A model generated the notes under the pieces. It made no database searches and was not told the origin of the DNA. It worked only from the letters and a program-made list of their open reading frames with translations. Below, in pieces: positions 5,085-35,368 of a DNA stretch of 64,000 bases (its first letter is position 1; every line of letters begins with the position of its first letter). Origin of the DNA: Faecalicoccus pleomorphus DSM 20574 (GTDB lineage: Bacteria > Bacillota_I > Bacilli_A > Erysipelotrichales > Erysipelotrichaceae); assembly GCF_000420345.1 (NCBI RefSeq), contig NZ_ATUT01000011.1, positions 1-64,000 of the forward strand, in the 5' to 3' direction. A program made the position numbers and the translations under genes.

Positions 5085-5113
5085 TTGATATATACCCTAT
5101 ATAGGTATATAAT
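5085..5113 (+). promoter_or_regulatory. Promoter of the copper operon with a CsoR operator in its spacer
   Basis: TTGATA (5085-5090), a 17-base spacer and TATAAT (5108-5113) make a near-consensus promoter. An inverted repeat TATATACC-N7-GGTATATA (5089-5111) overlaps the spacer and both boxes. Its ATACC/GGTAT halves are like known CsoR sites, so binding by the first gene's product would block RNA polymerase until copper is bound. Confidence 0.8.
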
Positions 5114-5133
5114 TCTAACGAAAGGTGATGAAT

Positions 5134-5430
5134 ATGACAGAAAATACAGAACATAAAAAACATACACCGCGTCCGCAGACGGAGGTAAAAATGTTAAAAA
5201 ATCGTCTGCATCGTATGATGGGGCAACTGACAGGTATTGAAAAAATGTTAGATGAAGGACGCTACTGTGGCGATATTTTGATTCAGGTTTCGGCATTGGA
5301 GAGTGCCTTACAGTCTTTAGGCTATTTGATCCTTCATGATCATCTGGAAACTTGTGTGCGGGAAAAGGCAAAAGAAGAAGATCCGGAGGTCATGGAAGAA
5401 GTCATGATGTTAGTTAAAAAATTGAAATAG
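5134..5430 (+). CDS. csoR: Copper-sensing repressor CsoR (DUF156 family)
   Basis: A 98-residue all-helical repressor. The Cu(I) ligands of the family are visible as the Cys in RYCGDILIQ and the His and Cys of LHDHLETC, the C-H-C triad that separates CsoR from formaldehyde-sensing FrmR. GTG 5125 and ATG 5128 are in frame upstream, but 5134 sits 8 bases after AAAGG and is the better start. It is followed after 10 bases by copA, and its own promoter contains a CsoR-like operator, so the operon is autoregulated by copper. Confidence 0.92.
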   Translation: MTENTEHKKHTPRPQTEVKMLKNRLHRMMGQLTGIEKMLDEGRYCGDILIQVSALESALQSLGYLILHDHLETCVREKAKEEDPEVMEEVMMLVKKLK

Positions 5431-32680: not shown

Positions 32681-32710
32681 AAAATGCAGACAGCTATTTG
32701 CTTGTCTGCA
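32681..32710 (-). terminator. Terminator of the ABC exporter operon, overlapping its last codons
   Basis: On the minus strand TGCAGACA pairs with TGTCTGCA and is followed by TTTTTC. The stem begins before the permease stop at 32694. Confidence 0.7.
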
Positions 32711-34334
32711 TCAAATGTTTCAATATGACTTTTGGTGTGATGATCACAAAACCGATCGTAATCAATAAGATGATAACCAACATAATGATAGAATACATTT
32801 CCCAGCTTGCCATTAAACCAAATAAGAAGAATGGTGCTACGGTTACCGCAAGGATAGCCCAGCTGATCAAGAACTCTAAAACAACGTTCATATTGTTTTT
32901 AACGGCACTGGTTTCATCTTCCCAGTCGGTTTTTGGATGAATACCATCGACAAAAATCGCAATCGCATTGACTAAAACGGTTGTCAAAATACTGCCTAAA
33001 AGGAAGAATAAATCGTACCAAATTGGATAAGGCAAGATCATATGAACACTAAACAACATCAAAACACAAGTTAATACCGAGAAAAGTGTTCCTACCGAAC
33101 CTTTGATCATGACTTGTTTGGTAAAGTCAAAAGGAATATATTTGACAAAGTCTAAATTCTTTCCTTCTCGTGAAAAGGCAGTAGCACTGATTCCGTTTAA
33201 CGATCCAGCAAAGAAACCAACGGCTGCTCCGGCAATCACCAGGATCAAAGGAAGATTGACTAAATCTTGAATGTTGATAGCCTGACTTGTTAACATTTCT
33301 TTAATTTCACTCATACCCGGCGTGACGATTGCCATCACGATAAACATGACCGGCATGACCAAAGCGGATAAAACACAGTTAGCCATATAGGCAGGGGTTC
33401 GAACCAATCGTAAAAATTCAACCTTCCAGTAGCTCCAGCTGACAGAACCTTGATTTCGATAAGAAACCTTTTTCTTTTTTCCGGCTGATGAAACCTTGGA
33501 TTCTCTTGCGGCACTTAAATACAGCCTATCGGCACAAATGACAAAAACAACTCCTAAAATCAGTGTAATGGCCAGTGTGATCAAAAAATCTATAAAGGAT
33601 ACTTCCACGATCGATCTGGCGGCAAAAGGCACATTGGCGAAAATACGAACGATCTTCAATAGATTTTCAGGATTGTTTTGAAGCATATCCATTAAGAACA
33701 TAGGATTTTCTACGTTAGCACCTAGCTGACTGGAACCGATACCGATCAATACGGCAATACCGATCGATAGAATTCCGGTGATCATGTTGAAACGATCTTT
33801 ATTCTTAAAAAATGGCAATAGTCTTAATATGATCATCCAAAAGATACTTGCGACAAAGGCGGTCGGTGCCCCAATTAAAAGAATCTGAGGGATAAATAAT
33901 ACAATTGATAAAATATTCACATTTCCGGCGCTGATATACGCAATTAACATTGGTACCATCCCTAATAAGCTTACTAGCAGCAGGGATACATAGACGATCA
34001 CAAACTTACTGGCAACGATGACTCTGGGTGTAATGGGAAGTACCAGTAAATGTTCCAAATCATTTGAAAAATAAAAGATCGATGGAAAGATAAACAAGGC
34101 TGTCCACAACATCAAAAAACAAATCATCGCAAAGCCCATTTCCATGATCAATAAATCGACGGTATGAGTCGCAAAACCAGTTTGAAACATATTAAACAGT
34201 AAGGCAAATGTGGGCAGTAAGCAGACAACCAGTACGGCTGCGACCGCGATTCCTTTTTTACCTTGTTTGGATTTTAGATCCATTCCGTAATTGGCCTTAA
34301 ATAAGGCTTTGGTCACTGTCAGAAAATCACGCAT
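32694..34334 (-). CDS. ABC-2 type exporter permease
   Basis: A 546-residue membrane protein with about 12-14 hydrophobic segments, in two halves separated by a basic stretch (SAGKKKKVSYRNQG, near residue 285). It is twice the usual ABC-2 subunit size, so the two halves may each act as one permease domain. Its ATG overlaps the ATPase gene by 8 bases, so the two form one transporter. The substrate is unknown; peptide or lipid export is typical of this type. Confidence 0.85.
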   Translation of the reverse strand: MRDFLTVTKALFKANYGMDLKSKQGKKGIAVAAVLVVCLLPTFALLFNMFQTGFATHTVDLLIMEMGFAMICFLMLWTALFIFPSIFYFSNDLEHLLVLPITPRVIVASKFVIVYVSLLLVSLLGMVPMLIAYISAGNVNILSIVLFIPQILLIGAPTAFVASIFWMIILRLLPFFKNKDRFNMITGILSIGIAVLIGIGSSQLGANVENPMFLMDMLQNNPENLLKIVRIFANVPFAARSIVEVSFIDFLITLAITLILGVVFVICADRLYLSAARESKVSSAGKKKKVSYRNQGSVSWSYWKVEFLRLVRTPAYMANCVLSALVMPVMFIVMAIVTPGMSEIKEMLTSQAINIQDLVNLPLILVIAGAAVGFFAGSLNGISATAFSREGKNLDFVKYIPFDFTKQVMIKGSVGTLFSVLTCVLMLFSVHMILPYPIWYDLFFLLGSILTTVLVNAIAIFVDGIHPKTDWEDETSAVKNNMNVVLEFLISWAILAVTVAPFFLFGLMASWEMYSIIMLVIILLITIGFVIITPKVILKHLMQTSK

Positions 34335-35049
34335 TGCGTGTAACCTCCAGGAAGATTTCTTCCAAAGAATCCTTGTCTTTATGCAGTTCTTTTAGTTCAT
34401 CCAGTGTACCGTTAAAACAGATGTTTCCATGATTGATGATGACGATCTTATCACATAGCTTTTCCGCAACCTCCAAAACATGGGTGGAGAAGAAAACGGT
34501 ATTGCCATTATGCGCATGTTCTTTCATCATCTCTTTCAATAAGTAAGAAGAAGCAGGGTCTAATCCAGTCATTGGCTCATCCAAGATCCAGATGTTAGGA
34601 TTACATACCAACGTGGCAATCAGAATGGCTTTTTGTCGCATACCGTGGGAATAGCTGGACATGCGATCGCTTAGGGCATCTTCCATACCGAAATCTTTGG
34701 CAAATTTTTGAATTCGCTCATTTCTGGTTTCTGTATCGATGTGATAGATATCTGCCATAAACTGAATATATTCCATACCACTTAAACGTAAGAACAAATC
34801 CGGAGAATCCGGTACCAGACCAAATTCACGTTTGGCATTGACCGGATCTTTTACGATGTCTTTTCCGTTTAAAGTGATGGTTCCTTCATCCGGTGTCAAT
34901 ACGCCTGTCATCATATGAATCGTTGTTGTTTTACCAGCTCCGTTAGGACCAATAAAGCCAACGATGCATCCGGTAGGAATGTCAACAGTCAGTTGGTTCA
35001 CCGCTGTTTTTTCACCGAAACGTTTTGTCACATTTTTAATTTCAATCAT
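34327..35049 (-). CDS. ABC transporter ATP-binding protein
   Basis: A 240-residue ATPase. Walker A GPNGAGKTTT, a Q-loop region at LVPDSPDLF with Pro in place of the usual Gln context, the signature YSHGMRQK (variant of LSGGQ), Walker B IWILDEPMTGLD and the switch His in FFSTHVLE are visible. It energises the permease encoded next. AAGGAGA precedes the ATG. The promoter carries a nine-base homopolymer in its spacer (see 35072-35098), which may set expression. Confidence 0.92.
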   Translation of the reverse strand: MIEIKNVTKRFGEKTAVNQLTVDIPTGCIVGFIGPNGAGKTTTIHMMTGVLTPDEGTITLNGKDIVKDPVNAKREFGLVPDSPDLFLRLSGMEYIQFMADIYHIDTETRNERIQKFAKDFGMEDALSDRMSSYSHGMRQKAILIATLVCNPNIWILDEPMTGLDPASSYLLKEMMKEHAHNGNTVFFSTHVLEVAEKLCDKIVIINHGNICFNGTLDELKELHKDKDSLEEIFLEVTRNA

Positions 35050-35071
35050 ACTTCTAAATCTCCTTGGCCGT

Positions 35072-35098
35072 ATTATACCACCGGGGGGGGGTAAGCAA
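35072..35098 (-). promoter_or_regulatory. Promoter of the ABC exporter with a poly-C tract in the spacer
   Basis: On the minus strand TTGCTT (35098-35093), a 15-base spacer containing C9, then TG-G-TATAAT (TATAAT 35077-35072). The spacer is two bases shorter than the best 17. A change in tract length would change spacing. Confidence 0.6.
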
Positions 35099-35368
35099 TA
35101 CAGGCATTAATTAAGATTATATTAATATTTAGTTAGTGTGTACAGTTAAATTTAGTTTATATTCCCTATTTACATGCTATAAGTGCATTAAATGGATCAC
35201 AATACGTAGAATATATTGAATATAAGATATAAATCTTTTTCAAATGGTTGAGTTAAGTGCGTTTATGGAATTTCAGTTCAAACACAATTGGATAAAGAAA
35301 GAATAGATCGTTCTGTTATGGATATAAAGTTTGGTGTACAATAGACAACGTAAAAAAGGAGAGAGAAT
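35099..35368. other. Intergenic region without a recognisable gene
   Basis: AT-rich sequence between the exporter promoter and the GNAT gene. Only short ORFs are present. A run at about 35253-35343 reads like coding sequence in one frame (VQTQLDKERIDRSVMDIKFG) but has no start or known match, so it may be a gene remnant. AAAGGAGAG for the next gene is at its end. Confidence 0.4.

Follow-up and report, generated by a model that had tools for sequence, protein, structure and literature searches.

In the porA promoter of Neisseria meningitidis, a G tract between the -35 and -10 boxes alters their spacing and hence expression. Variable -10/-35 spacing is named in the title of the porA study of van der Ende (1995), as cited in PMC5084427. 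A second meningococcal gene, opc, undergoes phase variation through a poly-C tract in its promoter (Sarkari 1994, as cited in PMC3447861 and PMC5084427), the tract containing 11 C residues in the parent and 12 in high-expressing variants according to PMC3447861. Outside the neisseriae, promoter-repeat variation controls the vlhA surface genes of Mycoplasma gallisepticum (PMC6258824), and in the gut commensal Bifidobacterium breve replication slippage in a G tract switches a surface structure, the pilus (PMC9187656).

The locus considered here lies in the first 64,000 nucleotides of contig NZ_ATUT01000011.1 of Faecalicoccus pleomorphus DSM 20574, hereafter the window. It shares with opc a poly-C tract within the promoter, the length of which sets expression in opc; the latter, however, is a proteobacterial surface adhesin for which variation was measured at the level of clones, whereas the window specifies an ABC exporter of a Gram-positive gut commensal and the variation is seen between species. 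PorA is a surface porin with an experimentally tested G run, while the window has a C run known from its sequence, and a closer match to porA is found in the exopolysaccharide (EPS) operon promoter of the same genome (G9, TTGACA-18-TAAAAT). The resemblance to vlhA lies in the promoter-repeat variation and in the fact that the lineage of M. gallisepticum is related to the Erysipelotrichia; vlhA, though, carries a GAA trinucleotide repeat in its promoter region rather than a homopolymer in the -35/-10 spacer. The B. breve pilus tract is intragenic and translational, like an EPS acetyltransferase tract on contig C6 of the present genome, whereas that of the window occupies a promoter spacer. The likeness to Neisseria surface genes drawn in a preceding sequence-only reading holds well for the mechanism, as in porA and opc, though what is controlled here would be an exporter operon and no surface antigen.

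Homopolymer promoter switches are already known, and what is new here is a candidate member in this lineage. No report of such a switch in the lineage was found in the open-access literature searched, an absence which is weak evidence because the search covered open-access papers only. If the reading is true, gut Erysipelotrichaceae and related Bacilli, which are common commensals with little-known cell-to-cell heterogeneity, use Neisseria-style promoter slippage, and candidate switches could be read by pattern from assemblies and metagenome reads. For such a switch an ABC exporter would be out of the ordinary, and it would suggest that cells differ by degrees in how much they export, the substrate perhaps being a peptide or a toxic compound.

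The tract promoter and its operon

The features of the locus, with the evidence for each in brackets, are as follows.

32694-34334, minus strand: ABC exporter permease, 546 aa (open reading frame; weak PF16949, ABC_tran_2)
34327-35049, minus strand: ABC exporter ATPase, 240 aa, ATG at 35049 (PF00005, E 1e-28)
35059-35065, minus strand: ribosome-binding site AAGGAGA (sequence)
35072-35077, minus strand: -10 box TATAAT (sequence)
35072-35080, minus strand: extended -10 TGGTATAAT, TGGTAAAAT in three relatives (sequence and four-species alignment)
35078-35092, minus strand: spacer ACCCCCCCCCGGTGG (A-C9-GGTGG), 15 nt (sequence)
35083-35091, minus strand: C9 tract in the promoter spacer, G9 on the plus strand (sequence; orthologous tracts C9, C8 and C5TC4)
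35093-35098, minus strand: -35-like box TTGCTT (sequence and four-species alignment)
35116-35144, minus strand: promoter P2, TGTACA-17-TATAAT, upstream of the tract promoter (promoter scan, 10/12)

On the minus strand the order is TTGCTT-ACCCCCCCCCGGTGG-TATAAT-ACGGCCAAGGAGATTTAGAAGT-ATG of the 240-aa ABC ATPase, which bears out the earlier description of a 15-base spacer between TTGCTT and TATAAT that includes nine C residues. TTGCTT agrees with the -35 consensus at three of six positions and TGGTATAAT is a perfect extended -10. The homopolymer sits between -35 and -10, as in promoters of the porA/opc type, though beside a weak -35. The permease gene overlaps that of the ATPase and is directly downstream. 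The top NCBIfam scores of the ATPase are to DrrA-like ABC ATPases, below the curated cut-off. PF16949 (ABC_tran_2) is weakly matched in five of six permease orthologues (best E 2e-4), and the predicted structure of the permease is all-helical, at low confidence (mean pLDDT 53); a search of solved structures for a relative of this protein found none.

The tract is the longest run of any base across the 64 kb, the next G/C run being G6; the sequence-only reading had correctly noticed it as the longest homopolymer of G or C. Depending on the Markov order, 0.004 to 0.1 runs of C or G of at least 9 are expected per 64 kb, and the run by itself is therefore just moderately improbable. Its weight rests on position and conservation, less on its occurrence.

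With a probability of about 0.58, we take the C9 run to be a contingency tract, prone to slippage, within the sigma-A-type promoter (with extended -10) of the ABC exporter operon, its length tuning promoter strength. The promoter with the C9 spacer would drive the ATPase and permease operon, and replication slippage would insert or delete single C residues, the distance from TTGCTT to TATAAT being 14 nt with C8, 15 with C9, 16 with C10 and 17 with C11. Altered spacing would then alter promoter strength, and the cells of a population would vary in exporter level. Given the extended -10, a graded effect is more probable than a strict on/off one. Slippage within the strain, use of the tract promoter and the effect on expression are what we infer from this analysis.

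Spacer-length phase variation, which had been put forward from the window alone, is favoured because the boxes are conserved (the promoter is kept in four species), sister species differ in tract length by a single base, the other two long G/C tracts of the genome are likewise placed as those of contingency loci would be, and related genomes repeatedly show G tracts within promoter spacers. Several points stand against it. The -35 is weak, and with an extended -10 present its spacing may count for little; another conserved promoter, P2, is present upstream; the tract is interrupted in two relatives; C-run promoters are scarce across the class and show no clear enrichment; and in base, in position and in the -35 box, the window promoter departs from the recurrent G-tract type.

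Tract length among related species

The closest named relatives are F. acidiformans DSM 26963 and two Faecalicoccus metagenome-assembled genomes (MAGs G001 and G003), with an ATPase identity of 83-87%. All four Faecalicoccus genomes share the promoter form TTGnnT-A-[C tract]-GGTGG-TAwAAT, the -35-like boxes of the three relatives being TTGCCT, TTGCCT and TTGTCT. The tract is C9 in the window and in MAG G001 (spacer 15 nt in both), C8 in F. acidiformans (14 nt) and CCCCCTCCCC (C5TC4) in MAG G003 (16 nt). Over 350 bp round the promoter, F. acidiformans and MAG G001 differ by 40 substitutions and one internal indel; this sole internal indel is one C in the tract, giving spacers of 14 and 15 nt, and it is set in more than 70 bp that are otherwise unchanged between the two. 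A one-C indel amid unchanged flanks matches what slippage would predict. A tract length that was fixed across strains had been proposed as grounds for abandoning the idea; with the comparison made between species (one genome per species), the length varies while the flanks are constant, as in the porA/opc type of promoter.

In Faecalitalea cylindroides ATCC 27803 the orthologous gene is preceded by C9-GAGC-TAAAAT, next to a gap in the scaffold; at the orthologous position a Faecalitalea MAG carries a C-rich tract that is broken up, CCACCCTCCC. The interrupted tracts of MAG G003 (CCCCCTCCCC) and of the Faecalitalea MAG (CCACCCTCCC) would slip less. More distant orthologues that were checked are without a tract, and a search of viral contigs (IMG/VR) for the window promoter gave no match.

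Other runs in the genome and competing readings of the tract

The 1.99 Mb genome contains only three runs of C or G of at least 8, each of length 9, the first being the window tract. The second is a G9 on contig C6 (76709-76717), which fills the end of the spacer of a TTGACA-18-TAAAAT promoter, directly against the TAAAAT. The LoaP-like antiterminator gene that heads the EPS operon lies downstream; on its sequence this promoter is a textbook candidate for phase variation, and clearer than that of the window. The third, also G9 (contig C6, 69175-69183), follows closely on the start codon, itself well placed, of an EPS gene resembling those of serine acetyltransferases. In the assembly this codon and the body of the gene are in different frames, and the arrangement resembles a translational contingency locus in what would be the off state.

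A second C9 promoter was seen in MAG G001 (contig C4), where the run precedes the TATAAT of a small gene belonging to a multicopy family with seven matches in the window's genome. Since relatives are without the tract, this one looks like a recent gain.

Among other readings of the window tract, the foremost, which we judge unlikely, is that P2 (35144-35116) is the main operon promoter and that the C tract belongs to its leader or to a minor promoter; tract length would therefore matter little, or act via the leader RNA. A simple promoter scan of spacers of 16-18 nt ranks P2 as one of the two best matches to the consensus within 4 kb, and its -10 region, ATATAATCTTAA, is invariant in four species. 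Moreover, a start 7 nt past the -10 of the tract promoter would fall on the first base of AAGGAGA, leaving a leader of just some 16 nt that opens with the ribosome-binding site. The boxes of the tract promoter are, however, as conserved as P2, and they include an extended -10 for which a mere leader would have no need. MAG G003 has a poor -35 in P2 (the variant in F. acidiformans and MAG G001 being TTGAAA-18-TATAAT), and the AT-rich stretch of P2 could be an upstream activating element.

It is improbable that the run is a neutral homopolymer whose length drifts within a non-critical spacer. In favour of this, no part of a promoter is less constrained than the spacer, the change between species amounts to one base, and a dinucleotide model gives about three runs of at least 9 per genome by chance; higher-order models, on the other hand, expect 0.1-0.35, the run persists in all four species, and all three runs of the genome are placed where expression would be affected. 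The number of runs proves little alone, the striking part being their positions. A run due to chance only was rejected, as the estimate is model dependent and conservation in four species speaks against it.

More doubtful still is the proposal that the C-rich spacer is a conserved repressor site, for example of the CsoR/RcnR type (a G-tract pseudopalindrome, TACC...GGTA), with no switch involved. All four species keep the element TACC-C-run-GGTGGTA, including the one whose run is broken by a T; G tracts are present in CsoR operators (PMC3902906); and each genome has one CsoR-family gene, which in the present genome lies at 5125-5430 of the window. The likely CsoR site upstream of csoR-copA in 4/4 species is, however, a 15-bp pseudopalindrome of the TACCyyaTAtAGGGTA type. 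The ABC element (TACC-C run-GGT-GGTA) is 17-19 bp with another centre, as against the 15-bp TACC-CTATATA-GGTA; a fixed dyad is unlikely since length changes would not be tolerated, and Faecalitalea retains the C run without the GGTA half. The operator reading was rejected because the ABC site differs from the likely csoR-copA site in length and composition. The latter, TACCCTATATAGGTA at 5093-5107, upstream of the csoR-copA operon and of a type conserved in the four Faecalicoccus species, is likely to be a CsoR operator.

An assembly or sequencing artefact in tract length is very improbable: assemblies often break or miscount at homopolymers (two contigs of MAG G001 end at the tract and the F. 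cylindroides scaffold gap adjoins it), but the tract comes out at 8-10 bases between the same flanks in four independent assemblies, one of which has a T inside it, and real length heterogeneity also yields contig breaks at the tract.

G-tract promoters in related genomes

Among 196 Erysipelotrichaceae genomes, a run of at least eight G followed by TAwAAT within 6 nt was found in 16, as against two for the reversed pattern, and TTGACA followed within 3-11 nt by such a run in 16, with none in the control. Across the class, TTGACA-N3-11-G8+-N0-3-TA was present in 45 of 394 genomes and its reverse in none; a single genome had as many as 15 matches, which included overlapping ones. A phylum-level search returned genomes that were all from this class. 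Tracts in these TTGACA-Nx-TA promoters range from G8 to G13 and occur in Erysipelotrichales and in other families of the class. In 100 of the 111 listed sites the G run abuts TA, and the spacers of these 111 cluster at 17-20 nt (87 sites versus 47 expected under unconstrained placement).

Many of the genes downstream of such promoters have signal-peptide-like starts or specify lipoproteins (secreted or surface proteins); others encode ABC ATPases or a bacterial PH-domain protein. In two congeneric species the promoter of the PH-domain gene is identical over approximately 115 bp save for G10 versus G11. In another genus of the Erysipelotrichaceae an ABC ATPase promoter has kept its core while the flanks diverged, the tract being G10 in one case and G12 in the other, and tract-promoter exporters have therefore arisen at least twice.

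The window promoter itself falls outside the G-tract set as defined (a TTGACA-like -35 and a G run abutting a TAnnnT -10), whereas the EPS-operon promoter of the same genome falls within it. The window tract is no standard member because it is a C run, lies five bases from the -10 and has a weak -35. Searches for C-polarity tracts gave CCCCCCCCGN2-4TAwAAT in 4 of 341 genomes and in none of the controls, and TTGACA with C8 in one genome and two control genomes, without enrichment; an initial C-run test gave eight genomes versus nine, its backward control being confounded by genuine G-tract promoters. The idea of a class-wide promoter type with C polarity was accordingly set aside, such tracts being rare and with no clear enrichment (8 vs 9, 4 vs 0, 1 vs 2).

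Tentatively, and at somewhat less than even odds, the window tract may be an outlying C-polarity member of a contingency-promoter system distributed across gut Erysipelotrichales and their relatives in the class, which would phase-vary secreted proteins, polysaccharide operons and ABC exporters via G/C spacer homopolymers, with between one and roughly a dozen such loci in each genome. No description of a system of that kind was found in the literature searched. More surprising than the window tract is the G-tract architecture seen throughout the lineage. The pattern TTGACA-Nx-G8+-TAwAAT is also present on 11 IMG/VR viral contigs, and some phages or prophages may therefore use such promoters.
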